NCBI GenBank assembly: GCA_009996615.1
Contig: JAACZU010000008.1
Span: 62,001-126,000 of the forward strand
Source: Rhodanobacteraceae bacterium
Lineage (GTDB): Bacteria > Pseudomonadota > Gammaproteobacteria > Xanthomonadales > Rhodanobacteraceae
Length of the DNA: 64,000 nucleotides
Reading direction: 5' to 3'
Positions within the stretch are counted from its first letter, which is position 1; every line of letters starts with the position of its first letter. The notes below the pieces were generated by a model that saw only the letters and a list, made by a program, of their open reading frames with translations, was not told the DNA's origin and ran no database searches. Shown in pieces: positions 1 to 59,215 of the stretch. A program made the position numbers and the translations under genes.

Positions 1-110
1 CGGACCGGAAGGTCGACGAGGTGACCGGCACGCGCGAGACGCGCATCCGCGGAGACAACGTGCGTGAGTACCGCAAGCGCGTGGAGCGGATTCGCGGCGG
101 TAGCGGTTGA
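1..110 (+). CDS. 3' end of an unidentified gene cut by the window edge
   Basis: Frame 3 is open from the first base and ends at a TGA at 108-110, giving a 35-residue charged tail (ending ERIRGGSG). The composition is coding-like, with many Arg and Glu residues, but too little is present to name a family. It lies upstream of the ATPase/PIN/ligase operon and could belong to the same accessory block. A repeat of the CGTCATTCCGG type separates it from the next open frame. Confidence 0.4.
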   Translation, partial: DRKVDEVTGTRETRIRGDNVREYRKRVERIRGGSG

Positions 111-150
111 GCTCGCTTCGCCACTACCGAAGACCTGGACACATCTGCGA

Positions 151-176
151 CGTCATGCCCGCGAACGCGGGCATCC
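151..176. repeat. CGTCATGCCCGCGAA-type palindromic repeat
   Basis: A short palindrome (GCCCGCGAACGCGGGC core) of the family whose other members here are at 10981, 15361, 26888 and 33530. It is intergenic. Function is unknown; it may be a REP-like element or a weak terminator hairpin. Confidence 0.5.
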
Positions 177-191
177 TTTGAAAAAGACGTC

Positions 192-321
192 ATGGGCGAG
201 GACTACCCCAGCGAAACCTTCCGCGCCCTCAAGAACAACGAGCTGCGCGAATTCGGCGAATACCGCACCCGCCGCCTGATGCCGGAGGCGTGGACACGCT
301 GCAATCAGGAGAGCTGCACTG
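192..321 (+). pseudogene. Possible short or broken open frame before the ATPase gene
   Basis: The frame opens with ATG at 192 and encodes a plausible start (MGEDYPSETFRALKNNELRE), but it runs without a stop into the ATPase gene in another frame. I recognise no family. It could be a decayed gene fragment left by the repeat insertion just upstream, or a leader region. Only the first 40 or so residues look protein-like. Confidence 0.2.
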
Positions 322-1719
322 ATGCTCACGCACCTGCACATCAAGAATTTCAAGGCCTGGCAGGACACCGGGCCGATCCGCCTTGCACCGTTGACCGTGA
401 TCTTCGGCGCCAACAGCGCCGGCAAGAGCAGCCTGGGCCACCTGTTGCTCGGTCTCAAGCAAACGACCCTGTTGGCGGACAGAAGCCGCGCGCTGCATCT
501 GGGCGATGCGCACTCGCTGATCGACCTGGGCAGCTTCGAGGACTGCCTGCACGGCCACAACCTCAAGGCCAAGCTGGAGTTTTCGCTGGGTTGGCGCCTG
601 CCGCGAGCGGTTGAGATACGCGATCCCCTGACGCCGGGAAAAACGTATGCAGGCGAGCGGATGCGGCTGGAATCCGTGCTTCGCGCCGGAACCCGCCACC
701 AGCCCGAACTGGAGTCGTTCGGCTACCTGCTCGAGGATGGGAGCGGCGCCGAACAGCTGCACGTGCGTCATGGCGTCCATGAAAATGGCAAGGCCTATCT
801 CGACGTCGAGCCAATGAAGCTCGTCAAGAAGCAGGGGCGCACGTGGCCCATCGAAGCACCGGAAAAGTTCTACCGCTTTTCCGATGTGACGTTGGCGCGC
901 TACCAGAACGCCGATGCGCTCAGCCAGTTTCCGCTCGAACTGGAACGGCTGCTGGCCGGCCTGACCTATCTCGGCCCGCTGCGCGAGCCGCCGCGGCGAA
1001 CCTACTCGTGGGCAGGCGACACCGTGCCGGATGTGGGCGCGCGCGGCGAGTTTGCGATTCCCGCCTTGCTGGCCGCCGCGCAAGCGGGGCGATCATTGAA
1101 TCGCGGCTACAAGAAGGCCAAGGCGAGATTCGACACGTTCATCGCGGGCTGGCTGCACGAGCTCGGCGTGATCGACAGCTTTCGGGTGCAACCGCTCGGC
1201 AAGGGGCGCAAGGAGTACGAGGTGCTGGTGCGCTCCCGCAACGGCTCGTCGGAAGTGAAACTGACGGATGTCGGCTTTGGCGTGTCGCAGGTGCTGCCCG
1301 CGCTGGTGCAGGCGTTCTATGCCCCGGCCAATGCCACGGTGTGGATGGAGCAGCCGGAAATCCACCTGCACCCGCAGGTGCAGGCGGAGCTTGCAGATGC
1401 CTTCATCAGCGCGGTGCAGGCTTACGAGAACGGCGCGCCGCGCAACGTCCAGCTCATCGTTGAAAGCCATTCCGAGCATTTCCTGATGCGACTCCAGCGC
1501 CGGATTGCCGAAGGCGTCATTTCGCCGGACGAGGTTGCCGTGTACTTCGCAAGGCAGTCGAAGGAAGGGCTTGATCTGGAGGCACTCAGGCTGGATCGAT
1601 ACGGCGACATTGAAAACTGGCCCGACGACTTCTTCGGCGACGAGATGGCCGAGATTGCGGCACGGACGCAGGCCGCGGTGAATCGGCGCATCAAGGAACG
1701 GGGAACGAATCGTGGCTGA
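322..1719 (+). CDS. AAA15-type ATPase with DUF3696-like C-terminus
   Basis: 465 residues. The sequence shows a Walker A loop GANSAGKSS (Lys35) after a short N-terminal strand, a Walker B-like WMEQPEIHLHP near residue 343, a switch region SHSEHFLMRLQRRI near 388, and a DUF3696-like C-terminus with GDIENWPDDFFGDE. Proteins of this class are soluble ATP-dependent sensors or regulators, often paired with a nuclease. The ATG at 322 follows a GGAG ribosome site. The gene overlaps the PIN gene by 8 nt, and that gene overlaps an RNA ligase gene by 4 nt, so all three are probably translationally coupled. It resembles OLD/AriA-like defence ATPases in layout, but family membership beyond AAA15/DUF3696 is inference. 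Confidence 0.85.
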   Translation: MLTHLHIKNFKAWQDTGPIRLAPLTVIFGANSAGKSSLGHLLLGLKQTTLLADRSRALHLGDAHSLIDLGSFEDCLHGHNLKAKLEFSLGWRLPRAVEIRDPLTPGKTYAGERMRLESVLRAGTRHQPELESFGYLLEDGSGAEQLHVRHGVHENGKAYLDVEPMKLVKKQGRTWPIEAPEKFYRFSDVTLARYQNADALSQFPLELERLLAGLTYLGPLREPPRRTYSWAGDTVPDVGARGEFAIPALLAAAQAGRSLNRGYKKAKARFDTFIAGWLHELGVIDSFRVQPLGKGRKEYEVLVRSRNGSSEVKLTDVGFGVSQVLPALVQAFYAPANATVWMEQPEIHLHPQVQAELADAFISAVQAYENGAPRNVQLIVESHSEHFLMRLQRRIAEGVISPDEVAVYFARQSKEGLDLEALRLDRYGDIENWPDDFFGDEMAEIAARTQAAVNRRIKERGTNRG

Positions 1720-2242
1720 GGTCGTGGTGGATACGAACGTGCTTTTGGTCGCCGAGGGCAAGCACGAGGACGCCAGTGAAGAGTGCGTTCTATCATGCGT
1801 GGCCCGGCTGCAGAAGATCATGCAGGGCGAGATCGTGGTACTGGACGACGGTTATCGCATGCTCGGCGAATACCAGCACAAACTCGACGCCAGGCGCGGC
1901 AAGGGCGTGGGCACGGTGTTCCTGAAGTGGTTGTTGCAACGGCAGTCCAATGCGAATCACGTAGTGCAGGTGGCCATTACCGAGCACGCCAACGACTGCT
2001 ACAAGGAGTTTCCGGTGGCACGACTGGAGCCGGAATTCGATCCGTCCGATCGCAAGTTTCCTGCCGTATCCAACGCGCACCCGTCAAAGCCACCGATCCT
2101 GCAGGCCGCCGATTGCAAGTGGCTGCGCTGGTGGCCCGAGCTGCGAGCCGCCGGGATTTCCGTCCACTTTCTGTGCCCCGATGACGTTTGCCGGTTCTAC
2201 GAGAAGAAGTTTCCGCAAGAGCCGGTGCCTGTGTTGCCATGA
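1712..2242 (+). CDS. PIN-domain-like nuclease
   Basis: 176 residues. The N-terminus VVVDTNVLL carries the first PIN acid (Asp7). Further candidate catalytic acids are Glu53, Asp113 (PSDRKF) and Asp134 (AADCKW), the spacing expected of a PIN ribonuclease fold. PIN proteins are metal-dependent RNases, common as toxins and defence effectors. The gene starts inside the 3' end of the ATPase gene and its TGA overlaps the ligase ATG (ATGA, 2239-2242). The probable role is an RNA-cutting effector controlled by the ATPase. No antitoxin-like gene is visible unless the ATPase or the ligase takes that role. Confidence 0.75.
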   Translation: MAEVVVDTNVLLVAEGKHEDASEECVLSCVARLQKIMQGEIVVLDDGYRMLGEYQHKLDARRGKGVGTVFLKWLLQRQSNANHVVQVAITEHANDCYKEFPVARLEPEFDPSDRKFPAVSNAHPSKPPILQAADCKWLRWWPELRAAGISVHFLCPDDVCRFYEKKFPQEPVPVLP

Positions 2243-2943
2243 CTGACGACTTCTTCCGCTTCCCCCACACCCCCCACATCGCCTGGCTCGGCGAGGGCAT
2301 GCCACGCGACGACAAGGTGCTTGCGCCCGATGAGGTCGCCGCGCTGTTGTCCGGCCCGGTGGTGGTGGAGGAAAAGCTCGATGGCGCCAACCTCGGGTTC
2401 TCCATCAACCCGGACGGCCAGTTGCGAGCGCAGAACCGGGGCCAGTACCTGTATCACCCGCATGCCGGGCAGTTCCAACGCCTTGACGAATGGATGGCGC
2501 TGCATGGTGCGGGCTTGATCGAGGCGCTGGGCGAGAACCTGATCGCGTTTGGCGAATGGTGTGCCGCACGGCATTCCCTGGATTACCCGGCGCTGCCGGA
2601 CTGGTGGCTGCTGTTCGACGTGTATGACCGGCACGAGGGGCGCTTCTGGAGCACGCGGCGCCGTGATGCGCTGGCATCGACGCTTGGGCTGGCCACCGTC
2701 CCTCGCCTGGCCGATGGCTGCTACACGCTGGCAATGCTCAAGGACGGCGTGGAGCACTGGAAGAGCCGTCACCGCGACGGTGGACTGGAGGGCGTGGTCG
2801 TACGCCGCGAGGATGATGACTGGCTGCTGGGCCGCGGCAAGCTGGTGCGCGCGGACTTCACCCAAGCCATCGACACGCACTGGCGCGGCCGCCGGATCGA
2901 GTGGAACAGGGTGAGCTGGTCGGCGCTGGCTCGAGCCGACTGA
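2239..2943 (+). CDS. RNA ligase family protein
   Basis: 234 residues. Nucleotidyltransferase motifs are visible in order: motif I EKLDGANLG with the adenylated Lys46, motif III-like LLFDVYD, motif IV LEGVVVR near residue 188, and motif V GRGKLVRADF. An N-terminal FPHTPHI resembles the TPH signature of this ligase group. Such enzymes seal RNA 5'-phosphate and 3'-hydroxyl ends using ATP. There is no visible extra C-terminal domain, so it is a minimal ligase. The start is fixed by the ATGA overlap with the PIN gene. In this operon it plausibly repairs RNA cut by the PIN protein. That link is inference. Confidence 0.8.
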   Translation: MTDDFFRFPHTPHIAWLGEGMPRDDKVLAPDEVAALLSGPVVVEEKLDGANLGFSINPDGQLRAQNRGQYLYHPHAGQFQRLDEWMALHGAGLIEALGENLIAFGEWCAARHSLDYPALPDWWLLFDVYDRHEGRFWSTRRRDALASTLGLATVPRLADGCYTLAMLKDGVEHWKSRHRDGGLEGVVVRREDDDWLLGRGKLVRADFTQAIDTHWRGRRIEWNRVSWSALARAD

Positions 2944-3118
2944 GGGCGACAGGCTCAGCGAAGTGGCACTGGGTGAGGCATTCTCCGGGTTTTCCGAGCC
3001 GCATACCGCCCGACCCGGGCGCGCGGTCATTGGGCGGTCCGATCTGATCGGCAAGCGATAGACGTCCCGCCCCCGCCCATCAGGTCTCGCCCCCATCACG
3101 TCAGCCGCCGGCCTTCCC

Positions 3119-4486
3119 ATGACCGCATCCGGATCCGCACAGTCCATTTCGATTGCAGGACCCGAGGTCGACACCCGCCTTCGCCGCTCGATCTCCAACA
3201 CGCTCAAGGGCTCGGCGGGCAACCTGGTCGAGTGGTACGACGTCTACGTCTATTCGGTCTTCGCCGGCTACTTCGAGTCGCAGTTCTTTTCGCCCGAGGA
3301 CAAGCACGCGACCTTGTTCATCTGGGCGATCTTCGCCATGACCTTCCTGATGCGGCCGATCGGCGCGTGGTTCTTCGGCCGCTTTGCCGATCGCCATGGC
3401 CGCCGGCTGGCGCTGACGGTGTCGGTCACGATCATGGCCGGCTGCTCGTTCGCCATCGCGATCACGCCCACCGTGGCCACCATCGGCATGGCGGCGCCGA
3501 TGCTCCTGCTGCTGGCGCGCCTGATCCAGGGCTTCGCCACCGGCGGCGAGTACGGCAGCAGCGCCACCTACATGTCCGAAGCGGCCATGCCCGGCCGACG
3601 CGGCCTCCTGTCCTCGTTCCATTACGTCACCCTGGTCGGCGGCCACGTGCTGGCGCAGCTCACCCTGCTGGTGATGCTGAAGTTCCTCGACGCCGCGCAG
3701 ATCGCGCAATGGGGCTGGCGCGTCGCCTTCGCCATCGGCGGCATCGCGGCCATCGTCGTGTTCTGGATGCGGCGGACGATGGACGAATCGCTCCGATCCG
3801 ACGCCATCCAGGCCGCCCGCAGCGGCCAGGCGCCGGCATCGGGCTCTCTGCGCGAGCTGCTCGTCCACCAGTGGCGTGCCCTGCTGCTGTGTTTCCTGAT
3901 AACCGCCGGCGGCACCGTCGCGTTCTATACCTACTCGGTGGTCGGCCCGAAAATGGTCCAGGGCCTGTTCGCCGGCGGCGACGCGATGACCGGCGTCGTC
4001 ATCAACCTGATCGCCTTGAGCGTGCTGATGCTGCTGCAGCCGGTCGGCGGCTGGCTGTCGGACATCGTCGGGCGCAAGAGCCTGCTGGTGTTCTTCGGCG
4101 TCGGCGGCGTGCTCTATACCGGCTTCCTGGTGCTGGCGCTGCCGCAACAGACTTACTGGCTGCCCGCGTTCGCGATCCTCGCCCTCGGCTTCGTCATCCT
4201 GACCGGCTACACCTCGATCAACGCCGTGGTGAAGGCCGAGCTGTTCCCCACGCACGTGCGCGCACTCGGCGTCGGGCTGGGCTATGCGCTGGCCAATTCC
4301 GCGTTCGGCGGCACCGCGCCGCTGCTATACCAAGCCGCGCTGCACACCGACAAGGTGAGGCTGTTCGCGGTGTACGTCACCGCGGTGATCGCGGCCTCGT
4401 TGTTCGTGTACGCCTTCTTCCTGAAGAACAAGGGTGCGAACTGGCTGGATGATGCCGCGGCCATGGATCGACGGAGCGTGCGCTGA
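3119..4486 (+). CDS. MFS transporter of the metabolite:H+ symporter (MHS) group
   Basis: 455 residues with about twelve hydrophobic segments. The N-terminal signature GNLVEWYDVYVY (34-45) and the loop 2-3 motif GRFADRHGRR (87-96) place it in the MHS subfamily with KgtP, ProP and citrate carriers. GFATGGEYGSS is another typical stretch. It is an inner-membrane proton symporter for an organic acid or betaine; the substrate cannot be read from sequence. It stands alone, 175 nt after the ligase gene, and its downstream flank carries a degenerate REP. Confidence 0.85.
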   Translation: MTASGSAQSISIAGPEVDTRLRRSISNTLKGSAGNLVEWYDVYVYSVFAGYFESQFFSPEDKHATLFIWAIFAMTFLMRPIGAWFFGRFADRHGRRLALTVSVTIMAGCSFAIAITPTVATIGMAAPMLLLLARLIQGFATGGEYGSSATYMSEAAMPGRRGLLSSFHYVTLVGGHVLAQLTLLVMLKFLDAAQIAQWGWRVAFAIGGIAAIVVFWMRRTMDESLRSDAIQAARSGQAPASGSLRELLVHQWRALLLCFLITAGGTVAFYTYSVVGPKMVQGLFAGGDAMTGVVINLIALSVLMLLQPVGGWLSDIVGRKSLLVFFGVGGVLYTGFLVLALPQQTYWLPAFAILALGFVILTGYTSINAVVKAELFPTHVRALGVGLGYALANSAFGGTAPLLYQAALHTDKVRLFAVYVTAVIAASLFVYAFFLKNKGANWLDDAAAMDRRSVR

Positions 4487-4505
4487 AGCGGTCCGCATCC
4501 AAACC

Positions 4506-4526
4506 GGGGGCAGAGTCGACTTTCCG
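4506..4526. repeat. Degenerate copy of the RAYT-associated REP
   Basis: The stretch beginning GGGGGCAGAGTCGACTTTCC matches, with a few changes, the arm GGGGTCAGAGTCACTTTTCG found inside icmF and related to the RAYT flanks. It lies 20 nt after the MFS stop codon. The match is by eye. Confidence 0.35.
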
Positions 4527-4599
4527 TCGCGCCATCGAAGCGCAACTCGGCCGCGCCGTTGGCCCGCGCAAGAGCGGGCGTGTCCTAGTCCCGGTCAGG

Positions 4600-6111
4600 T
4601 CACTGAATCGCGACGCTGTCGACGTAGAACCCGGCGAAGTTGCCTGAAGAGTCACTCTGGAAGGCAAACCGCAGACGGACGATGCGGCCGACGTAAGCTG
4701 ACAAATCGGCCTGGACGGCCTGCCAGCCGAGCGCCCCCTGGTGACCGCCCCACGCGGGCTGGCCGGCGATCAGCAGTGGATATGCCGGAGTGACGCTGGT
4801 GACGACCGAGTAGCTGGCGCCGCCATCGATGCTGATCTGCAGATTTCCGCCATCGTACGTGGCGCCCTCGGTATCGACCCACATCCGGAAGGTGAGCGTC
4901 GCGTTTTTCACGCCCCTGAGGTCGACATCGGGAGACGTGGCGGTCGTACCTGCCCAGGTATCGTTGCCGGAATAGTTGCCCGCGATCTGCGTGCCGAGGC
5001 ACTGGTTTCCCTCAAACGCTGCGGCGGGTCCGACGTTCTGAGGAACGCCGCATTGCCAGTCGCCGGTGAGCGTCCAGCCGTCCGGGCAGGTCTCGAAACC
5101 GTAGAAGACCGATAAAGGTGGCTCAAACCCATTCAAGAAAATGTAGTCACCGAATTCAACGGAGCCCATGTCGCAGTGCGAGCCGATCGGCCGCGTGACG
5201 CCGCGCTGATCGCGACCGTTGATCGGCGGCGCGGCGCACGTCGCATCGTCGCCATTGTTGATCGCATGACTACCCGGATTCGGCGAATAGGTTTGCGTCG
5301 GCCCGCCGTTGTCCGCCAGGGGACCGAGCAGCGGGTCGGCGTAGACGGGGTTCGTGTTGACAATGCACCCATCGCAATCGAGGCCCTGAGGGCCGCTGCT
5401 GTCGGAATTGTTCCAATAAAGATTGTGGTCGGCAGCGATGGAGTTGAACGGATCGCTGATGCTGCCGCCTCTCTGGGTCGCCGTGTTCCCCAGAAAGAGG
5501 TTGTTGGTCACGGTGGATTGAGAGGACGAGGATGAGCGAATTCCGCCTCCGTAATGCGCGGAGTTGTTCACGAACGTGTTGTTCGTGATCGTTGCCGATC
5601 CTGAAGCGATATAGATGCCGCCGCCCAGCGTGAGGGCGGCATTTCCCGAGAACGTGCTATTCGCCACGGCCAGCGTACCGTTGCTGGATATGCCGATGTT
5701 CGAGTTGCCGAGAAGCGTGCAATTCGAAACGGTCAATGTGCCGCCCTGATTGACGATGCCGGTCATTGCGTTGGCAATGGTCAGGTTGGAAACCGTTGCA
5801 GCGACACCCGTGTCGATTTGCAGGGCCGACACCGCATTGTTGCCGCTTATCGTCAATCCGAAGGTGCCAGCGCCATCGATCTTCAGGTTCTTCGTCACCG
5901 CCAAGGTACTGGCCAGCGTGATTGTCGAGCCAGCCGGCAGGGAAAACACGATCGTGTCGTCGGCATTTGCGTTCGCCAGGGCATCGCGCAAGGTGTTGGG
6001 TCCGCCGTCGGCGGCACTCGTGACGGTGACATTCGCGGACCATGCGTTCGCGGCGCACGAGAGGAGGAACAGCGAAATGACGCGCGCAACCATAACGGCC
6101 GGTTTCCTCAT
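4600..6111 (-). CDS. Secreted parallel beta-helix protein with C-terminal lectin-like domain
   Basis: 503 residues from the ATG at 6111, chosen because it starts a clear signal peptide (MRKPAVMVARVISLFLLSC then AANAWSA). Residues about 30-320 are beta-helix repeats rich in Asn, Ser and Thr (NNTFVNNSAHYGG type), like the choice-of-anchor Q group. An NGFEPP motif follows near residue 330, the kind normally found at the very C-terminus of secreted Lysobacterales proteins. Here it is followed by a 170-residue beta-sandwich-like segment ending FAGFYVDSVAIQ (choice-of-anchor J-like). The layout suggests a domain added after an original end. Function is probably cell-surface or extracellular; substrate unknown. 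Confidence 0.75.
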   Translation of the reverse strand: MRKPAVMVARVISLFLLSCAANAWSANVTVTSAADGGPNTLRDALANANADDTIVFSLPAGSTITLASTLAVTKNLKIDGAGTFGLTISGNNAVSALQIDTGVAATVSNLTIANAMTGIVNQGGTLTVSNCTLLGNSNIGISSNGTLAVANSTFSGNAALTLGGGIYIASGSATITNNTFVNNSAHYGGGIRSSSSSQSTVTNNLFLGNTATQRGGSISDPFNSIAADHNLYWNNSDSSGPQGLDCDGCIVNTNPVYADPLLGPLADNGGPTQTYSPNPGSHAINNGDDATCAAPPINGRDQRGVTRPIGSHCDMGSVEFGDYIFLNGFEPPLSVFYGFETCPDGWTLTGDWQCGVPQNVGPAAAFEGNQCLGTQIAGNYSGNDTWAGTTATSPDVDLRGVKNATLTFRMWVDTEGATYDGGNLQISIDGGASYSVVTSVTPAYPLLIAGQPAWGGHQGALGWQAVQADLSAYVGRIVRLRFAFQSDSSGNFAGFYVDSVAIQ

Positions 6112-6149
6112 ACATTCCCCCTCTCGCTCGAACCGCGTATTCGCGTAGT

Positions 6150-6380
6150 CTGGCGCCGGCCCCCGACTCCGAACCCCCGGCATTGTTCGCAAGCGCGCTC
6201 GAGCCGATCAGCGGGCTGGCCGTTCCCTGGTTGGCGACCAGTTGGATCGCACCGCCCTACGCGCTCGCCACGTTGCCGGTGAAGTGCAGGTTGGTCAGCG
6301 TCGGGCTGCAGCCGTAACCAACGCCGAGGCCATTGCAGTATAGCCCGCCGCCGGCGCTGTCCGGCGTGGTGGCGGGCGAA
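6150..6380 (-). pseudogene. Broken fragment of a second beta-helix protein
   Basis: The minus strand reads SPATTPDSAGGGLYCNG, then CSPTLTNLHFTGNVASA, a TAG stop (6257-6259), then GGAIQLVANQGTASPLIGSS. The Gly-rich, Asn-rich turn pattern is that of polymorphic or parallel beta-helix proteins. The frame is interrupted by the stop and ends abruptly at the RAYT flank at 6382, so it looks like a remnant cut by the mobile unit. It neighbours an intact beta-helix gene and may be a former duplicate. Confidence 0.6.
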
Positions 6381-6381
6381 G

Positions 6382-7215
6382 AAACGGGGTCAGGTTCACT
6401 TTAGGCGGATTCGCTGACGGGACGCCGAGCAGATATCCGACTCGAAAATCGGCATCCGCCGCTGACGCTGGCTGCCGCACGCCGACGAAACTCGCCGCAT
6501 GGCACGCCTGCCCCGACTCGATCTTCCACACATACCGCAGCACATCGTCCAGCGCGGCAACAATCGCCTGCCCTGCTTTCTAGATGACGCCGACCGGAGG
6601 CGCTATCTGCATTTGCTGCGCGAAGCCCTGCTCGACACCGACGTCGCGCTGCATGCCTATGTACTGATGGACAACCACGTCCATCTGCTCGTCACGCCAC
6701 CCGAAGTCGGCGCCGTGTCGCGCCTTATGCAAAAACTCGGACGCCAGTATGTCGGCCACTTCAACGCTCGCTACCGGCGCACCGGCACCTTGTGGGAAGG
6801 CCGCTACAAGTCCTGCCTGGTCGACAGCGAGAACTACGTGCTGCACTGCAGCCGTTACATCGACCTGAACCCGGTTCGCGCCCGCATGACCGACGATCCA
6901 GCGCGCTTCGCATGGTCCAGTTGTGCGCCGCTGTGCGGCCAGCGCGACGATCCGCTGCTGTCGCCCCATCCCGCCTACGCGAAGCTCGGCGCCACGCGCG
7001 CCGAACGCGCCGCGGCTTATCGATCCCTGCTCCGCGAAGCGCTATCGGGCGACGATCTCGAAGCCATCCGCACCTACCTGCAGCAGCAACGCGCATGGGG
7101 CCGGGACGACTTCCGCGCCATGGTCGAAGCCAAAACCCACCGCTTCGCAGGCACCCGACCCGCGCATCGGCCACGCACCCGACCCACCCCTCAGTAAGTG
7201 AACCTGACCCCGTTT
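6382..7215 (+). mobile_element. RAYT/REP unit with 20-bp perfect inverted ends
   Basis: AAACGGGGTCAGGTTCACTT at 6382-6401 is repeated exactly in inverse orientation at 7196-7215, flanking the tyrosine transposase gene. The right copy starts within the transposase stop codon (TAA 7195-7197). Both outer junctions abut broken genes: a beta-helix remnant on the left and an IS256-type remnant on the right. Such REP-flanked single-gene units are the expected form of RAYT loci, which mobilise REP sequences through single-stranded DNA. Confidence 0.8.
6499..7197 (+). CDS. REP-associated tyrosine transposase (RAYT, Y1_Tnp family)
   Basis: 232 residues. The HUH metal motif is NHVHLL (His60, His62), and the conserved RYIDLNPVRA holds the candidate catalytic Tyr120. 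QHIVQRGNNR near the N-terminus and GTLWEGRYKS (96-105) are family signatures. RAYTs nick and join REP hairpins as single strands and are usually domesticated single-copy genes. It appears intact and is flanked by its probable REP substrate on both sides. A related REP hairpin sits inside icmF at 13903-13988. Confidence 0.9.
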   Translation: MARLPRLDLPHIPQHIVQRGNNRLPCFLDDADRRRYLHLLREALLDTDVALHAYVLMDNHVHLLVTPPEVGAVSRLMQKLGRQYVGHFNARYRRTGTLWEGRYKSCLVDSENYVLHCSRYIDLNPVRARMTDDPARFAWSSCAPLCGQRDDPLLSPHPAYAKLGATRAERAAAYRSLLREALSGDDLEAIRTYLQQQRAWGRDDFRAMVEAKTHRFAGTRPAHRPRTRPTPQ

Positions 7216-7222
7216 TCCCTCG

Positions 7223-7582
7223 GCCACGATCGAGGACGCAGCGCGCGAACTGGATGCGTTCGAGGGCGCATGGGGCGAGAAGTACCGCGCCGCCGTGCGC
7301 GTGTGGCGCACCGCCTGGGCCAACGTCGTGCCGTTCTTCCAGTTCCCGCCGGAGATCCGCAAGATCACCTATACGACCAATGCGATCGAGTCGCTGAACA
7401 TGACGATGCGCAAGTACACGCGCAACCGGCGCATCTTCCCGAACGACGACTCGGCGCTGAAGTCGCTGTATCTGGCCATCCGCGAGGCGAGCAAGCGTTG
7501 GCGCGGCGTACATCACTGGAAGCCCGCGATGCAGGTGTTCCAGATCCTGTTCGGCGAGGAACGCGTGCCGATCGGCGCGTGA
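7223..7582 (+). pseudogene. C-terminal remnant of an IS256-family (mutator) transposase
   Basis: The frame reads TIEDAARELDAFEGAWGEKY, then PPEIRKITYTTNAIESLNM, then RRIFPNDDSALKSLYLAIRE. These are the signature C-terminal blocks of IS256-type transposases. About 120 residues remain of roughly 400, so the catalytic N-terminal part is missing. The truncation point coincides with the right end of the RAYT unit, suggesting that insertion or a linked rearrangement removed the rest. The remnant cannot be active alone. Confidence 0.75.
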
Positions 7583-7595
7583 GGTCAAACGGCAG

Positions 7596-8570
7596 TTACA
7601 CAGTTAGATTGACAGACCCCAGGACGGCCTTGGCCGGAGCAACTCCATCATAGACGATCAATGCGGCCCAATCGTCGAGAAACGTTGATAGCGACTGAGG
7701 AACTGACACCCGACTGCAAAGAAAGCCAACCGCCGTGTCAGCTGAAAAATTAAACCTGACAACCGCTCGACTCGGCTCCTTTCGAGATCCAAGCGCAGCC
7801 TTCATACGAGAGAAAAAAATTACGGCGTACCAAAGCAAAAACTTTCCTCGCAACCATGACCTATAGTCCTCTGATGACAGATCGTAGCGAGCCGCCCGAA
7901 TGTCACTCTTTGAAGGCGTCGCATCAAAAAATACATTGGAATACGACGAGCTGGGGTGCCGACGACTGCGTCGACCTACATCACCGACGGGTGAAATTAC
8001 GATCAACTCGTCGAGTTTAACCTGATCGAAGTCAACTCTGCCGCCGCTTCGCTTATAAGCAACGGCCATATAAATCATTGGAAACAACAAGCGAGCGAGC
8101 TTTCTTGAACCATCATAAAAAGCGCGTTTCCACACTTCTCTTCTAACATCAGTCATTGATAAACGAAAGAAGTCTTGCCACACGTTATCGAAGAAATCTT
8201 GATCGACCACATGACTCTCTATCGAATAGCAATCAGTGAGGTAAAGTTGGGAACTAGATAGATTGCCAGCCAGGTAATCATCCAAGTCCCTATCGACAAA
8301 GAAACCAAGCCTCGCAAGGTTCCAAGACATATTCTTTACCCACCCCAAAAGGGTAAGAACTATGCCCTTTCCGCCACAGTTCAAAAAATCAACGCGCTCA
8401 CGATGCAGAGCAAGACGCTGCCTCACGTGAGGCAGGTAAAATTCAACGTCATCGCCACCCTCAAAGCAACAGACGACATCGATATCATTATTCCAATATT
8501 TAAGACGAAGCTCATGAAATTTCGCAGCTGGCGACCTGCCGGCTATAGCAAGATCAGCAACCCGGCTCAT
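7596..8570 (-). CDS. ariB: DUF4435 nuclease, AriB-like component of PARIS defence
   Basis: 324 residues. TOPRIM-like acids are visible: FEGGDD (Glu37) and FFVDRDLDD (Asp93, Asp95), plus the DUF4435 motif NCGGKG (64-69). In characterised PARIS systems AriB is held by the AriA ATPase and, after a phage anti-restriction trigger, is released and cleaves host tRNA to abort infection. The gene follows ariA with a 1-nt overlap (TAATG). The pair is markedly AT-richer than the rest of the window, with different codon use, consistent with horizontal gain. The PARIS assignment rests on domain pairing, order and motifs. Confidence 0.75.
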   Translation of the reverse strand: MSRVADLAIAGRSPAAKFHELRLKYWNNDIDVVCCFEGGDDVEFYLPHVRQRLALHRERVDFLNCGGKGIVLTLLGWVKNMSWNLARLGFFVDRDLDDYLAGNLSSSQLYLTDCYSIESHVVDQDFFDNVWQDFFRLSMTDVRREVWKRAFYDGSRKLARLLFPMIYMAVAYKRSGGRVDFDQVKLDELIVISPVGDVGRRSRRHPSSSYSNVFFDATPSKSDIRAARYDLSSEDYRSWLRGKFLLWYAVIFFSRMKAALGSRKEPSRAVVRFNFSADTAVGFLCSRVSVPQSLSTFLDDWAALIVYDGVAPAKAVLGSVNLTV

Positions 8571-9958
8571 TAGCCAGCCCTCTGCAGCTCAGCAAGATCC
8601 CTTGCACAATCGAAGAGCTCATTGTCATAGATAAAAGGCGAATGTGTGACAGCAGCCAAAAAGCAACACCGGCCAGACGAAACTATATCCGGAAGCAAAG
8701 TCTTCTGCCATTCAACCGAAAGTGAAAGTTCCGGCTCATCAATGATTAAACTATAGCTTTCGGCATCGCCGAGGTAGATCTGCGCAAAAAGTGAAACAAT
8801 TTGCTTCTCACCTGATGAAAGACCGCGCATTTCGATAGTTCCGCCGCGATCCAGCTCCAAAGTCAACCTATAGCCGACATCGTCAAACTCGAAGCGCTTC
8901 GCTTGCAAGTATTTGTTGCACACCTCCATAAACTGACGCAACGGAACTTCAGCCTTTTGCTGAATTTCATGAATGGCAACTAGCTTTGAAAAAAAATGCG
9001 CCAACAAATCTTGGTCGCTGTCTAGCGCCTGACGATCTCGGATGCGGTTGATTACCTCAAAGACTTTCCCCTTATCTCTCTCATCCAACTGCTTTTCTTC
9101 GACCCGCGCCAAGATCAAACGAATCTCGTGATCCGGCAGCTGATTTATTTTTTCGCCGGACCATTCCTTCGCCTCGCCGCGAATAACATCCCGCAAGTAA
9201 CTGCCCGCGAGGTTATTGAGCTCGACTCGCGAACCCTCCTTGAGCGCCGCGACCTTTGCCGTCACCCTGGACTCCACATCCTCCATTCCAAACTCAACAA
9301 GCTCGACATACCCAGAACGACCATCGCGCACCACACGCTGCCGGACCGCCTTTCTGAAGTCACCCTCAAATTCAGGAAACAAGCTCTTTAGATCTTGCTC
9401 AATTCGACGATACGTCGGAAGGTAAAGCACCTGACTTGTAAATTTTTCTAAGCGGGCCTCGATATCCAGCAATGCTTTGCTCGTCTTTCGCTGCCTCTTG
9501 CTATTGGCGCGGATAGAATCAAATAGAATTCGCTCGACGTGCGAAACAGGAACCTCGATTCTTCTAGCCACCCTCACCACATCATCCTTTGTTAGATTCG
9601 AAAAGCCGGCCCCCGCATTAAAAACTAGATTCCTGAACTCCTTAGAAGTTCGAATGCGCTCAACATTAGCTATAGGCAGAGATTCAAATATTGATGTTTG
9701 CCAAGAAATATCGGGATAGGCAAGAACTGATTGATTAATTTCAATCTGATCAGAATCCAGTGTTAAATAAATTATATTGAATTCATATTCCAATAATTTC
9801 TGCCACTGACGGGTAAGCACAAAGTACAACATGCTTACGATTGTCGTTTTCCCAAGACCATTAACACCGACCAAGATTACTTTTCCATCGCTAATAGGAA
9901 CATCAACGTCGATGGAACCGTGAAGGCCTTTTATTGAGAAGCCAGTAATTTGCGACAT
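8570..9958 (-). CDS. ariA: AAA15 ATPase, AriA-like component of PARIS defence
   Basis: 462 residues. The Walker A loop is VGVNGLGKTT (Lys37). The ABC-type signature LSSGEKQIVSLFAQIY lies near residue 380, and Walker B with D-loop follows as YSLIIDEPELSLS. A late AAVTHSPFIYDNE gives the H-loop. This is the arrangement of AriA, the sensor ATPase that forms a cage holding AriB in PARIS. A GAGGGGAG ribosome site precedes the ATG at 9958. It is the first gene of a two-gene AT-rich operon. A different DUF4435/ATPase pair remains possible but less likely. Confidence 0.75.
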   Translation of the reverse strand: MSQITGFSIKGLHGSIDVDVPISDGKVILVGVNGLGKTTIVSMLYFVLTRQWQKLLEYEFNIIYLTLDSDQIEINQSVLAYPDISWQTSIFESLPIANVERIRTSKEFRNLVFNAGAGFSNLTKDDVVRVARRIEVPVSHVERILFDSIRANSKRQRKTSKALLDIEARLEKFTSQVLYLPTYRRIEQDLKSLFPEFEGDFRKAVRQRVVRDGRSGYVELVEFGMEDVESRVTAKVAALKEGSRVELNNLAGSYLRDVIRGEAKEWSGEKINQLPDHEIRLILARVEEKQLDERDKGKVFEVINRIRDRQALDSDQDLLAHFFSKLVAIHEIQQKAEVPLRQFMEVCNKYLQAKRFEFDDVGYRLTLELDRGGTIEMRGLSSGEKQIVSLFAQIYLGDAESYSLIIDEPELSLSVEWQKTLLPDIVSSGRCCFLAAVTHSPFIYDNELFDCARDLAELQRAG

Positions 9959-9998
9959 CTACGCTCCCCTCAAAAAAAAAAGAAAGATCCAACATTAC

Positions 9999-10015
9999 GT
10001 ACCATCTAGTGGTAC
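9999..10015. promoter_or_regulatory. Palindrome upstream of the PARIS pair
   Basis: GTACCA and TGGTAC form a perfect inverted repeat around a 5-nt spacer, 41-57 nt before the ariA start. It lies in the short AT-rich promoter region (9959-10025). It may be an operator, or chance. Confidence 0.3.
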
Positions 10016-10025
10016 TGCATGGGGT

Positions 10026-10214
10026 CTATACCTGGCCGGCCATGGCATACGGATTGACCGGCTGGCCGGCCTGCTGCGGACGCGGCTTTTCGGCCGCCTG
10101 GTCCGACGCGCGCTGCTGGCAGGCCGCGAGACAGAACGCGACCAAGCCGATCAGCGTGATGTTGAAAAGCGTGCGCAGTGCTCCCCGGCACTGAAACCCT
10201 GCAACGGAATCCAT
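10026..10214 (-). CDS. Small putative lipoprotein
   Basis: 62 residues. A hydrophobic stretch LFNITLIGLVAFCLAAC ends in a good lipobox (LAAC), followed by a short polar tail rich in Gln and Pro. The N-terminal extension before the hydrophobic part is long for a signal peptide, so the true start may lie further in. I do not recognise a family. It sits between the PARIS promoter and a repeat, with no evident partner. Confidence 0.4.
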   Translation of the reverse strand: MDSVAGFQCRGALRTLFNITLIGLVAFCLAACQQRASDQAAEKPRPQQAGQPVNPYAMAGQV

Positions 10215-10361
10215 CCCGAATCTTCGCCCCCTGAAGCGTCGATCGGTCGAGTAGGCAACAAACGCGGCGGATGTTCAAGCTGCAGTGCAATTGCGCTGGC
10301 TAACGCGTGGGCGACGCGTGCCACTGGCATGCTTGGGATTGGATCTTGTGCTTCGCCCGAA

Positions 10362-10403
10362 CCCTCTCCCCAACCCCTCTCCCGGCGGGAGAGGGGCTTG
10401 AAG
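10362..10403. repeat. Hairpin repeat of the CTCTCCCGGCGGGAGAG type
   Basis: A 10-bp perfect stem (CCCCTCTCCC and GGGAGAGGGG, 10374-10396) is followed by CTTGAAG, the tail shared with the CCTCCCCTTGAAGGGGAGG family at 15508, 18320 and 45839. It lies downstream of hicA. Confidence 0.6.
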
Positions 10404-10428
10404 CAGCCAAGCGCCGTCGCCGATCAAG

Positions 10429-10674
10429 TCATGGCTCGAGCAACAGCCGAAGCAGATCATCCCTGCTGATCCCGCGCCGTTGGGCGACATCCGCGAGGAT
10501 CGCCGCAAGCGTTCCCACCTTGAGCGGGGAGTGATTGGGAATCGTCAGCGCATGCGGTTTCGGCGCATCGCACTGCAAGCGGACGTGGCTACCCGTCTGC
10601 CGCACGACGCGGTAGCCGATGCGCTGCATCGCCTTGATCAGATCGGGAGCATCCATCTCCCGGGGCAGCTTCAC
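10429..10674 (-). CDS. hicA: HicA-like mRNA interferase toxin
   Basis: 81 residues with the HicA core VVRQTGSHVRLQ (catalytic-type His30) and the C-terminal HSPLKVGTLAAILADV. HicA toxins are small double-stranded-RNA-binding-fold RNases that cut mRNA or tmRNA and are neutralised by HicB. Its start overlaps the stop of the upstream HicB-like gene by 4 nt, so antitoxin and toxin are coupled with the antitoxin first. The family call is strong; activity is unproven. Confidence 0.8.
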   Translation of the reverse strand: MKLPREMDAPDLIKAMQRIGYRVVRQTGSHVRLQCDAPKPHALTIPNHSPLKVGTLAAILADVAQRRGISRDDLLRLLLEP

Positions 10675-10877
10675 GCCGCGAGCACCTCGTCGCGCACGTA
10701 GTGCAGGCGAATCAGCCCAGGGCCGGTTCCTTCGTCGAAATGGCAGCGAACGGCATCCCGGACCTGTTCGCGCAACTCTTCGTAGGTGTCGGCCTGGGTA
10801 TGGATGGATTCGCCGAGCGCACGCGCGGAATAGCCGCCTTCGGCGGCTTCCTCGACCAGAAAGACGATTTCCTTCAT
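10671..10877 (-). CDS. HicB-like antitoxin (short form)
   Basis: 68 residues from the ATG at 10877, which is preceded by a GAGG site. The sequence has the partial RNase H-like HicB fold (FLVEEAAEGGYSARALGES, then YEELREQVRDAV). No C-terminal HTH or arrow domain is visible, unlike longer HicB proteins, so it may not regulate its own promoter. It immediately precedes hicA and overlaps it by 4 nt. Its role is toxin neutralisation by inference from position and fold. Confidence 0.7.
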   Translation of the reverse strand: MKEIVFLVEEAAEGGYSARALGESIHTQADTYEELREQVRDAVRCHFDEGTGPGLIRLHYVRDEVLAA

Positions 10878-10980
10878 GCGCACCTCCTCGGTTCCGGCGA
10901 TGTTACCCGCCATGGGAGGATGTTCAAGGTGGCCGGCGGGTGCCGGGATCCGGCATCGCGTGAACTGCAAGCAAGGAGCT

Positions 10981-11064
10981 GGGTTCCGGATTTCGCCGGA
11001 ACGACGAGCTGGGGCGGCGCTTGCCTGGGTCTGGAGATTGAGCCCCTCGCCCGGGCGGGAGAGG
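10981..11064. repeat. Two adjacent repeat copies
   Basis: GGGTTCCGGATTTCGCCGGA (10981 on) is an inverted member of the CGTCATTCCGG family. CCCCTCGCCC with a pairing GGGAGAGGG (11043-11064) is a member of the CTCTCCC hairpin family. Both lie between hicB and the icmF tail fragment. Confidence 0.5.
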
Positions 11065-11080
11065 GACTCGAGGTCTCGGC

Positions 11081-11178
11081 TTACATGTTGAGGCGGAACT
11101 CGCCGCCCAATTCATGGCGCTGACTTCGAGACTGTGCGTCTTGACCGCCCCCGTCACCGTCGCAAACACGGTGCTGTC
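11081..11178 (-). pseudogene. Decayed duplicate of the icmF 3' end
   Basis: On the minus strand the segment reads GTGTTTGCGACG, then GCGGTCAAGACGCACAGT, and ends with CAACATGTAA. It aligns with the true icmF end (GTGTTCGCCGCG, GCGGTCAAGACGCACAGC, CAACATGTAA) with small indels. The frame is shifted, so it is not coding. It sits 480 nt beyond the intact icmF stop, in the same orientation, with the DUF2283 gene pair between them. Confidence 0.65.
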
Positions 11179-11215
11179 CGTCCAAGGCGAGCAAAGCTCG
11201 AGCGCGCACGCCGCG

Positions 11216-11413
11216 TCAGGCAGCGATCTGTTCGAATGACAGCCGCCGTGCATCGGTGCGCTGGCTGGCGTGCTCGAGGGTCATCGCGCAAAGACGCCCG
11301 CTCGCGTCAAATTCGACCAACGTGTTCTCGTCGAGATCGCGCGTTTCCGCGACGTCGCCATCGGAAAACACGATGTAGAGCGTGTCGGTGTCCTCGAAGT
11401 ACTTGATCTTCAT
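11216..11413 (-). CDS. DUF2283 family small protein
   Basis: 65 residues starting MKIKYFEDTDTLYIVFSDGD, the signature of DUF2283, followed by AETRDLDENTLVEFDASGR. These proteins are small and soluble, often found beside DUF4258-like or other toxin-like partners, and are widely suspected antitoxins. The start overlaps the stop of the upstream gene by 4 nt. Base composition is less GC-rich than the neighbours. Confidence 0.75.
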   Translation of the reverse strand: MKIKYFEDTDTLYIVFSDGDVAETRDLDENTLVEFDASGRLCAMTLEHASQRTDARRLSFEQIAA

Positions 11414-11646
11414 GGCGTGAAATCCCGGTCGAAGAAGGCGTTGTGCACAGTCTCGCCATCATCCAGCAACACGACCCGCAGATATCGCCCCTCCGCTTCG
11501 TCGATGCTTGCCCAGCGACGGATGCGGCCATCGGCCTGCACGTGTTCACGAACTGGCGAGCGAATCGCACGCTCGATCCATTCGTCACGGATCATCGCAC
11601 GATCCGGCCGGATGCGCGTGGCGAGAAAGTATCGCGTGGTCTTCAT
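11410..11646 (-). CDS. Small protein paired with DUF2283, possible toxin
   Basis: 78 residues, basic and aromatic: MKTTRYFLATRIRPDRAMIR, then VREHVQADGRIRRWA and a terminal NAFFDRDF. It resembles small DUF4258/BrnT-like partners that precede DUF2283 genes, but I cannot assign it firmly. The overlap of 4 nt with the DUF2283 gene makes a two-gene unit. It ends the accessory zone next to icmF. Function is unknown; a toxin-antitoxin role is inferred from size and pairing. Confidence 0.6.
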   Translation of the reverse strand: MKTTRYFLATRIRPDRAMIRDEWIERAIRSPVREHVQADGRIRRWASIDEAEGRYLRVVLLDDGETVHNAFFDRDFTP

Positions 11647-11661
11647 CCCACACCGATCCGA

Positions 11662-14600
11662 TTACATGTTGCGGCGGTACTCGCCACCGACGTCGTACAG
11701 CGCATGGCTGATCTGGCCGAGGCTGTGCGTCTTGACCGCTTCCATCAGCGCGGCGAACACGTTCTGGCGGGCGCGGGCGGTGTCTTGCAGGTAGGCGAGG
11801 CCCGTGCCGCCCGGTCGCGGCTGCGCCGCTCCTACAACGGCGCTGTTGCGGGCCTGCTGGTACGCGCGCACGTTGTCGATCTGCTGGCCCTTCTCTTCCT
11901 CCGTCGAGCGGATCAGCTCGATCTCGGTGACGATGTCGCCGCCGTGTTCCTTCGGCAGGAACGTGTTGACGCCGACCAGCGGCAGGCTGCCGTCGTGCTT
12001 CTTGTGCTCGTAGTAGAGGCTCTCTTCCTGGATCTTGCCGCGCTGGTACATCGTGTCCATCGCGCCGAGCACGCCGCCGCGCTCGCTGATCGCCTCGAAC
12101 TCCTTGTACACGGCCTCTTCGACGATATCCGTCAGCTTGTCGACGATGAAGCTGCCCTGCCACGGGTTCTCGTTGAAGTTGAGGCCCAGTTCCTTGTTGA
12201 TGATCATCTGGATCGCGACCGCGCGGCGCACGCTTTCCTCGGTCGGCGTGGTGATCGCCTCGTCGTAGGCGTTGGTGTGCAGGCTGTTGCAGTTGTCGAA
12301 CAGCGCGTACAGCGCCTGCAGCGTGGTGCGGATGTCGTTGAACTGGATCTCTTGCGCGTGCAGCGAGCGGCCGGAGGTCTGGATGTGGTACTTCATCATC
12401 TGGCTGCGCTCGTTCGCGCCGTAGCGCTCGCGCATCGCGCGCGCCCAGATGCGCCGCGCGACGCGGCCGATCACGGTGTACTCGGGGTCCATGCCGTTGG
12501 AGAAGAAGAACGACAGGTTCGGCGCGAAGTCGTCGATCTTCATGCCGCGCGCGAGGTAGTACTCGACGATCGTGAAACCGTTGGACAGCGTGAAGGCGAG
12601 CTGGCTGATCGGGTTCGCGCCGGCCTCGGCGATGTGGTAGCCGGAGATCGACACCGAGTAGAAGTTGCGCACCTTGTGGTCGACGAAGTACTGCTGGATG
12701 TCGCCCATCATGCGCAGCGCGAACTCGGTCGAGAAGATGCAGGTGTTCTGCGCCTGGTCTTCCTTCAGGATGTCGGCCTGCACGGTGCCGCGCACGGTGG
12801 TGAGCGTGTGCGCCTTGATCCTGGCGTAGGTCTCGGCGTCGACGACCTGGTCGCCGGTCACGCCGAGCAGGCCCAGGCCGAGGCCGTCATTGCCGGCCGG
12901 CAGCGGGCCGGAGTACTCGGGGCGCGGGCGGCCGTCGAACAGGCGCGCGATCTTCCGCTCCGCCTCGGCCCAGCGCGTGGCGTCTTCCTTCAGGTACTTC
13001 TCCACCTGCTGGTCGACCGCGGTGTTCATGAACATCGCGAGGATGATCGGCGCCGGACCGTTGATCGTCATCGAGACGGAGGTGGTCGGCGCGCACAGGT
13101 CGAAGCCGGAGTAAAGCTTCTTCATGTCGTCCAGCGTCGGCACGTTGACGCCGGAGTTGCCGATCTTGCCGTAGATGTCCGGGCGCGGCGCCGGGTCCTC
13201 GCCGTACAGCGTGACGCTGTCGAACGCGGTCGACAGGCGCGCGGCCGGCAGGCCCTGGCTGAGGTAATGGAAGCGGCGATTGGTGCGCTCGGGCGTGCCC
13301 TCGCCGGCGAACATGCGGATCGGGTCCTCGCCGGTGCGGCGGTACGGGTAGACGCCGCCGGTGTACGGGTAGGAGCCGGGCAGGTTTTCCTTCTGCAGGA
13401 AGGTCAGCAGCTCGCCCCAGCTCTTGTAGGTCGGCGCGGCGATCTTCGGGATCTTCTGGTGCGACAGCGATTCGCGGTAGTTCTCGACGCGGATCGTCTT
13501 GCCGCGCACCTCGTATTCGTTGACCTCGTCGGTGATCGACTTCAGCCGCGCCGGCCATTCACGCAGGAGCTTCAGCGCCTCGGACGACAGCGACTGGATC
13601 GCGTCGTTGTAGCGCTGACGGAGGGTCTTGAGCGAGCGGTCGTCGCCCTCGAGCAGATCGTCGGCGGCGTAGAGGTCGAGCGCCTTCGGCAGCTTCGGAT
13701 CGTCGAGGTCGCGCAGCGACTGCCAGTAGCTCTGCGCGCGGTCGGCGACCTCGGCCTGCGTGTCGATGCCGGCGTTGATCGCGCGGCCCTGCTCGGCGAT
13801 CTCGGCGAGGTAGCGCACGCGGCTGCCGGGGATCAGCACGGTCGCGCGCGGTTCCTTGAGCGTGGTGTCGAGGTGTGGGGTCCAGTCGCAGCGCGGGGAG
13901 GAAGAAATGGGGTCAGAGTCACTTTTCGACTCATGCCCCAAACCACCGCTCACCGCCTCGCCCGAAAAGTGACTCTGACCCCACTTCTTCTCGCGCAACA
14001 ACCGGCACAGGTTGGTGAACATCCAGGTCACGCCCGGATCGTTGAACTGGCTGGCGATGGTCGGGTAGACCGGCACCTCGTCGTCGCTGAGCTTGAACGC
14101 GACGCGGTTGCGCTTCCACTGCTTGCGCACGTCGCGCAGCGCGTCCTCGGCGCCGCGCTTGTCGAACTTGTTCAGCACGATCAGCTCGGCGAAGTCGATC
14201 ATGTCGATCTTCTCGAGCTGGCTGGCCGCGCCGTAGTCGCTGGTCATCACGTACATCGGGAAGTCGACGAGGTCGACGATCTCCGAGTCGGACTGGCCGA
14301 TGCCGGCGGTCTCGACGATGACGAGGTCGTAGCTCTGCCCCTTCAGGAACGCGATGCAGTCCTTCAGCACGGCGTTGGTGGCCACGTGCTGGCGGCGCGT
14401 GGCCATCGAGCGCATGAACACGCGCTTGGAGCGCAGCGAGTTCATGCGGATGCGGTCGCCGAGCAGCGCGCCGCCGGAGCGGCGGCGGGTCGGGTCGACC
14501 GCGAGCACGGCGACGCGCATCTGCGGGAATGCGTGCAGGAAGCGCAGCAGCAGCTCGTCGACGACCGACGACTTGCCGGCGCCGCCGGTGCCTGTGATTC

Positions 14601-59140: not shown

Positions 59141-59215
59141 TGGTGGGTGCTGAGGGTTTCGAACCCCCGACCCTCGCCTTGTAAGGGCGACGCTCTACCG
59201 CTGAGCTAAGCACCC
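59141..59215 (-). tRNA. tRNA-Val (UAC anticodon)
   Basis: 75 nt with encoded CCA. Reading the minus strand: acceptor GGGTGCT/AGCACCC, D-arm GCTC-AGCGGTA-GAGC, anticodon stem TCGCC/GGCGA with loop CTTACAA (anticodon TAC), 5-nt variable loop, and T-arm with GTTCGAA. It decodes GUA and probably other GUN valine codons. It stands between hupB and ppiD. Confidence 0.97.

Follow-up and report, generated by a model that had tools for sequence, protein, structure and literature searches.

In the PARIS defense system, the ATPase AriA gates the nuclease AriB, and in PrrC an ATPase and a nuclease are combined in a single protein. To our knowledge, RNA-cutting defenses are either countered by repair enzymes of phages or kept in check by partner proteins. 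According to the available excerpts of the sources, prrC lies within a type IC restriction operon and the PrrC protein is restrained by the restriction complex (PMC3874165), phage T4 repair combines a kinase (Pnk) with a ligase, and AriB is a two-metal RNase for which a 3'-OH end has been shown and a 5'-phosphate is expected (PMC12409363). Several Hma-embedded candidates (HECs), including HEC-06, are likewise described in excerpt as active against phage (PMC12988326), and HEC-03 appears in the accessible text as a name in a list only. The locus considered here lies in a 64,000-nucleotide stretch of DNA, hereafter the window, from a Rhodanobacteraceae bacterium (contig JAACZU010000008.1, positions 62,001 to 126,000) with a genome of 3.9 Mb. 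Its three overlapping genes encode a predicted ATPase, a predicted PIN-fold nuclease, and a predicted RNA ligase. There is about an even chance that this trio is a ligase-bearing form of candidate HEC-03, acting as an ATPase-gated RNA-cutting fail-safe with a built-in sealer.

The initial annotation of the locus reported three genes overlapping by 8 and 4 nucleotides (nt), and the open reading frames (ORFs) listed in Table 1 confirm both overlaps, the longer between ATPase and PIN genes and the shorter between PIN and ligase genes. For all three products, residues whose motif roles are known from these protein families can be followed through alignments of relatives. The first protein was originally called a DUF3696-like AAA15 ATPase with Lys35, and this name holds, given matches to the Pfam families AAA_15 (3.6e-21) and DUF3696 (1.9e-09) and a Walker A Lys35 kept in 102 of 103 aligned rows, the remaining row having a gap. 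Among PADLOC models, HEC-03B matches this ATPase with 418 bits (E 1.1e-125; residues 1-460 against positions 1-456 of 458), and the AriA models are far weaker. The middle protein gives no match in a Pfam scan and none to DUF4435 or AriB in Pfam or PADLOC, and it is matched by the PADLOC model HEC-03A at 99 bits (E 7e-29; positions 2-157 of 159). Its proposed active-site residues Asp7, Glu53, Asp113, and Asp134 are kept in 99, 100, 100, and 99 of 100 rows, respectively, D45 and D110 are kept in all 100, and the conserved acidic residues are likewise present in four divergent copies.

An AlphaFold model of the middle protein, built from six sequences, has a mean predicted local distance difference test score (pLDDT) of 92.8. 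The top of its Foldseek list holds 5yww, 1w8i (probability 0.98), and a mycobacterial addiction-module chain, and further matches include 4xgr_C (probability 0.89), RNA-free RNase P, Nob1, and the SMG6 PIN domain. We take 5yww and 1w8i to be PIN structures. With members of the PIN superfamily among the best, albeit statistically weak, matches, the model supports the PIN fold that had been anticipated for this protein. No small antitoxin gene of the VapBC type stands beside the PIN gene, whose neighbors are the overlapping ATPase and ligase genes.

The third protein matches the Pfam family RNA_ligase (PF09414; 2.8e-33, 115.9 bits against a cut-off of 27). It is matched by no model in PADLOC 2.0.0, and TIGR01209 (Rnl3) scores 17.5 bits without reaching its cut-off of 136.9. 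Residues E44, K46, D48, G49, N51, R67, E184, G185, and K201 are conserved in 96 of 97 rows, the last of which has a gap, and E106 and D127 are kept in all 97, which agrees with the earlier description of a minimal RNA ligase with Lys46. When the AlphaFold model (35 sequences, pLDDT 89.9) was compared with known structures using Foldseek, 43 matches were obtained at E <= 0.001, with template modeling (TM) scores of about 0.4-0.6. By title, ranks 1-40 are RNA or tRNA ligases except for two chains of 3qwu, a putative DNA ligase; an unambiguous DNA ligase first appears at rank 41. The modeled structure therefore gives strong support for an RNA-ligase fold. Identity as a DNA ligase was rejected, since Pfam, PHROGs, and structure all place the protein nearest RNA ligases. 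This placement also makes it highly improbable that the trio acts on DNA, with the PIN protein as a DNase and the ligase closing DNA nicks on behalf of a restriction-like system, even though genes for a DNA methyltransferase and a helicase occur among the neighbors and OLD-class proteins include DNases (PMC12409363, in excerpt).

At 234 amino acids (aa), compared with 317-403 aa for most of the matched full-length ligases, the window ligase has little beyond the matched domain. Judged by length and model, it is apparently little more than a nucleotidyltransferase domain. The Rnl1, Rnl2, Rnl3, and Rnl5 classes carry an extra domain, and many ligases need an accessory domain. A lone nucleotidyltransferase domain would be compatible with a second effector or signal maker that adenylates 5'-phosphate RNA ends or makes dead-end joins and so worsens the damage, and the Rnl3 of P. 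pacificus is cited, in the accessible part of one paper, for strong adenylation and weak ligation (PMC12153264). Such a role is quite unlikely, however, because every ligase motif residue is conserved, K201 included, and because relatives that lack the ligase exist, indicating that the nuclease manages without it.

The trio recurs as a unit, as the reading in the initial annotation required. Scanning genome contigs with the PIN alignment yielded 299 relatives, of which the best 80 were kept, giving a sample that leans to close relatives (loci of relatives are designated by L numbers). The order ATPase-PIN-ligase was found by tblastn in 78 of these 80, the two without a ligase being L043 and L063. 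The ATPase is matched in its C-terminal part only in L045, L047, and L051, and L041, L053, and L062 have an ATPase or ligase truncated by the end of a contig. All three genes lie on the same strand within 300 nt at 94 of 104 loci, some of which are copies of one genome. With start codons picked by a simple rule, the junction falls at -4 nt in 63 of the 94 for ATPase-PIN and in 49 of the 94 for PIN-ligase. The other ten loci are L043, L063, L090, L091, L098, and L101, which have no ligase, two plasmids, and L099 and L102, in which the PIN protein is too divergent for tblastn and a ligase is present. The L019 ATPase and the L092 and L128 PIN rows (stop inside the extraction) were left out of the alignments. 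The gene order recurs across many Pseudomonadota genera and on a Rhodococcus plasmid, and the trios of Cyanobacteria and Chloroflexota come from metagenome-assembled genomes (MAGs) only. At L160, L161, and L163, the PIN protein (50-52% identical to that of the window) and the ligase (60-61%) are accompanied by an ATPase that matches in part only, at 42-43%, a hint that a different ATPase can serve the PIN-ligase pair.

Searches with the HEC-03A model in overlapping sets of 148, 398, 369, and 289 genomes returned 6, 15, 6, and 9 positives, and the partners were judged by tblastn with the window proteins over about 1.5 kb on each side. Among the 30 distinct positive genomes, an ATPase lies beside the PIN gene in 29 and a ligase in 20. 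The five genomes in which the model exceeds 120 bits all lack the ligase, whereas 20 of the 25 below 120 bits have it. The HEC-03A model thus seems to fit a ligase-less branch best, and this would account for the absence of the ligase from the PADLOC model. In the reverse direction, a search with the ligase alignment gave matches in 18 of the 398 genomes, and 11 of the 12 strong ones lie beside an HEC-03A gene. The twelfth (L114 1507-1860, minus strand) is an orphan, truncated copy with no PIN or ATPase gene nearby, and the weaker matches in these genomes have neither gene within about 1.5 kb. Chance adjacency of the ligase was rejected on the basis of the recurring gene order and of these strong matches beside PIN genes.

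Pairwise identities across 91 trios, uncorrected for phylogeny, give Spearman correlations of 0.66 for PIN-ligase, 0.55 for ATPase-PIN, and 0.43 for ATPase-ligase. This shared variation of PIN and ligase, together with the adjacency of 11 of the 12 close ligases to HEC-03A genes, makes it very unlikely that the ligase is a general RNA-repair gene that guards the host against damage from other ribotoxins or from phage enzymes and only happens to lie in the operon. Such a gene would nonetheless have precedents, given that anti-ribotoxin RNA-repair operons are described in the available excerpts for RtcAB (PMC7790460) and Pnkp1-Rnl-Hen1 (PMC4411300).

The history of the ligase can be traced on a PIN tree of 41 rows, which was made by a quick method that leaves 15 of 37 inner branches open and from which L102 (not extracted) and L166 (a fragment) were left out. 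A group of 31 rows, comprising 28 with the ligase and three scattered rows without it (Shimodaira-Hasegawa-like approximate likelihood ratio test, SH-aLRT, 93), is set apart from seven ligase-less rows. A far PIN lineage (L099, L100, and L101) has the ligase in two of its three members, and the related L102 has it as well. Two far-separated PIN lineages therefore carry related ligases. Presence and absence of the ligase require six changes on the tree, as against ten on average for shuffled labels. The ligases of L099, L100, and L102 are 52-58% identical to that of the window, compared with 32-34% for their ATPases, and these identities suggest that the ligase was added to distant HEC-03 lineages or passed between them. 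A constrained-tree test that asked whether the ligases of the divergent loci fall within the main ligase clade gave an approximately unbiased test value (p-AU) of 0.52. In the ATPase tree, which omits seven short ATPases, bacterial families are intermixed, and so are phyla if the MAG labels are correct, a pattern expected from horizontal transfer. L127 and L128 lie on long branches of uncertain placement.

The trio also occurs on plasmids. The PIN gene is found on 12 plasmid records, eight of which have an adjacent ligase, and three A. soli plasmids give no ligase match. An alignment scan found the full trio on the predicted viral contig IMGVR_UViG_3300046462_000630 (L168 2595-5187), and a single-protein scan of viral contigs returned nothing. 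At L018, an HNH_2 endonuclease gene (11229-11993) directly follows the ligase.

Additional clues come from the DNA immediately upstream. A peptide of 40-odd codons just before the ATPase gene recurs in relatives and corresponds to the C-terminus of a frame of about 1,300-1,450 codons in L025, L026, L027, L058, and L072. When the L026 methyltransferase was compared with the genome of the window, it matched window positions 183-299 at 69% identity, with no body there and, in the rest of the genome, nothing but local matches to further methyltransferases. The frame of this tail breaks shortly before its end in the window, and the TGATG stop/start junction with the ATPase gene (320-324) is intact. 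The junction is the same in L027, L026, L022, L065, L017, and L129 and differs in L012. In L018, L028, and L048 the methyltransferase frame extends past the tail, and in L022 it ends just short of the tail's end. The nearest PADLOC models for the L026 and L058 methyltransferases are DISARM DrmMI and type IIG, and an Eco57I-type methyltransferase domain is present in the L025, L026, and L058 proteins.

Among 85 named loci, the tail lies within 60 nt of the ATPase gene in 16 and 2.5-3.2 kb further up in five, and a near-full-length methyltransferase (matched body of at least 1,161 aa) is present in nine, three of which are the query sources. Seven of the 16 tail-adjacent loci, with at least 1.5 kb of upstream sequence, show the tail only. 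At L025, the tail occurs twice upstream of the trio (7211-7321 and 8482-8592) with a 225-aa ORF in between, an arrangement that resembles the insertion of cargo through recombination at the tail. About 2.5-3.2 kb separate the methyltransferase tail from the ATPase gene in L018, L028, L048, L058, and L072. The gap in L018 and L028 contains an ORF of about 650 aa, with no PADLOC match in L018 and a weak LmuB match in L028, which is perhaps further cargo in the same slot. Restriction-like genes surround other copies, including a DpdE/DrmD-like helicase upstream of the methyltransferase in L026, in L027, some kilobases downstream, DUF499 and DUF1156-methyltransferase genes with weak resemblance to HmaC and HmaB, and a type I methylase with a specificity subunit directly upstream in L011. 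The position of the trio within methyltransferase operons suggests a logic of restraint like that of PrrC.

The wider neighborhoods support a defense-rich setting. At E <= 1e-15, 100 ORFs neighboring the trio matched 135 PADLOC families, compared with 12 for 100 random ORFs. The test ORFs were drawn from 488 neighbors of 41 full-length trio loci, taking the nearest 145 of at least 120 aa in order with one skip, and the control ORFs came from 20 stretches of six genomes that were unmatched to the test loci. The counts are of families and are not independent, because the leading families hit the same few ORFs, no more than five apiece, and the defense-rich setting thus serves as supporting evidence only. 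GmrSD genes flank L066, L078, L073, and L080, and housekeeping genes flank other trios such as L069, L084, and L089. On the Rhodococcus plasmid, a CAP12/Pycsar TIR-domain effector gene (L127 6777-7661) lies downstream of the actinobacterial trio.

The gene order, its conservation, the predicted folds, the intact active-site residues, and the embedding in operons can be accommodated by a scheme for a putative anti-phage role. The ABC/OLD-type ATPase would hold and gate the PIN nuclease, and its trigger would probably be infection or failure of the neighboring restriction-like system, as for PrrC in EcoprrI. Once released, the PIN protein would act as an RNase on an essential RNA, most likely tRNA, and translation would stop. 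Some VapC toxins and PARIS AriB cut tRNA. Cleavage by two-metal-ion nucleases is expected to yield 5'-phosphate and 3'-hydroxyl ends, as the two-metal chemistry of the PIN protein presumably would, and ATP-dependent RNA ligases of this class require precisely such ends. The PIN-made ends would therefore be directly ligatable, with no need for a kinase or phosphatase. Within the trio, to which the search was limited, there is no end-healing enzyme, which fits this expectation. The initial comparison with T4 repair of PrrC damage requires correction on this point, since T4 uses a kinase in addition to a ligase. The ligase could then reseal the breaks made by the PIN protein, mop up leaky cutting, and let the cell recover.

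A more specific proposal, with a chance somewhat short of even, is that the operon encodes a translation-stopping RNase together with a ligase that reseals the same break through matched ends, resulting in reversible dormancy rather than abortive death, and that the module is cargo that moves between restriction-like operons and takes the methyltransferase tail along.

The same proteins might instead form a processing pair, in which the PIN protein trims or cuts a specific RNA that the ligase circularizes or joins, with no cycle of toxicity and repair. The structural matches of the PIN and ligase models include RNA-free RNase P and Rnl3-type structures, and the available part of one report links the PIN-superfamily nuclease HARP to the RNA ligase Rnl3 (PMC12153264). 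This explanation is nevertheless unlikely. It gives the ATPase no role, no Rfam family reaches its gathering score in window positions 1-12000, and the patchy distribution, the plasmids, the predicted viral contig, and the restriction-like operons suit defense better.

Several observations weigh against a gated RNase with its own sealer. The Foldseek E-values of the PIN model are weak (>=0.02, with zero matches at E <= 0.001), unrelated folds are interspersed from rank 5, and the PIN sequence searched against solved structures gives a best E of 0.37. The ligase seems to be without an accessory domain and may therefore need a partner or may only adenylate RNA. No ligase match stands beside the PIN gene in 10 of the 30 HEC-03A-positive genomes, and L043, L063 (0.8 kb after PIN), and L098 lack a ligase despite belonging to the ligase-bearing group. 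On A. caviae plasmid L126, an IS256-family transposase gene (5781-7034) splits the ligase (5538-7606), with ATPase and PIN genes annotated as whole, and on A. soli plasmid L125 an HNH_2 endonuclease gene (5538-6296) occupies the ligase's place. A ligase that is missing or interrupted in relatives cannot be an essential antitoxin, and that role was rejected. Finally, the HARP-Rnl3 pair is interpreted in the accessible text mainly as RNA processing. Since knocking out the ligase left growth unimpaired, the authors doubt a toxin-antitoxin function, at least for T. kodakarensis, in which, they add, the two genes do not lie together (PMC12153264).

Other features of the window are collected in Table 1. 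The PARIS pair initially placed about 5 kb away was recovered as a PARIS-like pair at a distance of 4.65 kb, and its G+C content of 0.471, compared with 0.687 for the window, indicates that it was probably acquired recently. A scan of window positions 1-3200 for promoters and terminators found none.

Table 1. Window features, with positions counted from the first nucleotide of the window
Feature	Position	Strand	Details
Methyltransferase tail remnant (C-terminus of a DrmMI-like/Eco57I-type adenine DNA methyltransferase)	183-322	+	Similarity to L026 methyltransferase and to relatives' tails
ATPase gene (HEC-03B-like, AAA_15/DUF3696, ABC-type)	322-1719	+	465 aa; ATG start; Walker A Lys35; PADLOC and Pfam
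PIN gene (predicted HEC-03A-like PIN-fold nuclease)	1712-2242	+	176 aa; GTG start; D7, D45, E53, D110, D113, D134
Ligase gene (predicted minimal ATP-dependent RNA ligase, PF09414)	2239-2943	+	234 aa; ATG start; K46, R67, E106, D127, E184, K201
RAYT-like transposase ORF	6499-7197	+	By eye
Apparent C-terminal fragment of an IS256-type transposase	7295-7582	+	By eye
PARIS-like pair	7596-9958	-	AriB-like DUF4435 7596-8570; AriA-like ATPase 8570-9958; Pfam, PADLOC
Two small overlapping ORFs, presumably HicA toxin and HicB antitoxin	10429-10970	-	By eye
tRNA	59141-59215		Sole tRNA in a scan of L002, L003, and the window

If the proposed scheme is true, a host-encoded sealer within a defense unit would amount to damage control at the very bond that was broken, and three genes would suffice for a direct test of the reversibility of RNA-cutting immunity. 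Such a unit would also complete HEC-03 and add a PrrC-like, restriction-embedded case built from different enzymes. The literature searched, which did not cover the Payne 2024 preprint or Burroughs and Aravind 2016, nowhere describes a ligase as an HEC-03 partner. It likewise yielded nothing on an RNA ligase with a PIN domain in anti-phage defense and only an item unrelated by title for DUF3696, and the main text of the PADLOC papers does not mention HEC. The earlier claim of a wholly undescribed system had to be given up for the ATPase and PIN genes, which HEC-03 covers, and holds within that literature for the ligase, which appears undescribed as a third component. Similarly, the original picture of a cutter with its sealer retains a conserved predicted unit in a defense setting, but two of its three genes belong to a known candidate.

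Compared with HEC-03 itself, the window ATPase corresponds to HEC-03B and the PIN protein to HEC-03A, near full length and with overlapping genes, as judged from match scores and gene coordinates, and the difference is the added ligase. PARIS similarly sets an ABC-type ATPase beside a two-metal RNase, but AriB is a Toprim nuclease, whereas the trio has a PIN protein and an added ligase, and the PARIS-like pair of the window is separate. EcoprrI and PrrC share with the trio the placement of an RNA-cutting fail-safe gene inside a DNA-restriction operon, RNA cutting by the trio being predicted; the tRNA break made by PrrC is fixed by the kinase and ligase of phage T4, whereas the trio carries a ligase gene of its own. 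The closest parallel in print is HARP with Rnl3, in which a PIN-superfamily RNase is linked to an ATP-dependent RNA ligase (PMC12153264), although the available excerpts report no ATPase, a mostly bidirectional arrangement, mostly extremophile hosts, and another ligase family. Pnkp1-Rnl-Hen1 and RtcAB, also known here from excerpts, resemble the trio as bacterial RNA ligases that undo ribotoxin cuts (PMC4411300, PMC7790460), but those ligases act with the end-modifying Pnkp1 and Hen1 or with the cyclase RtcA, whereas the partner of the trio ligase is a nuclease.

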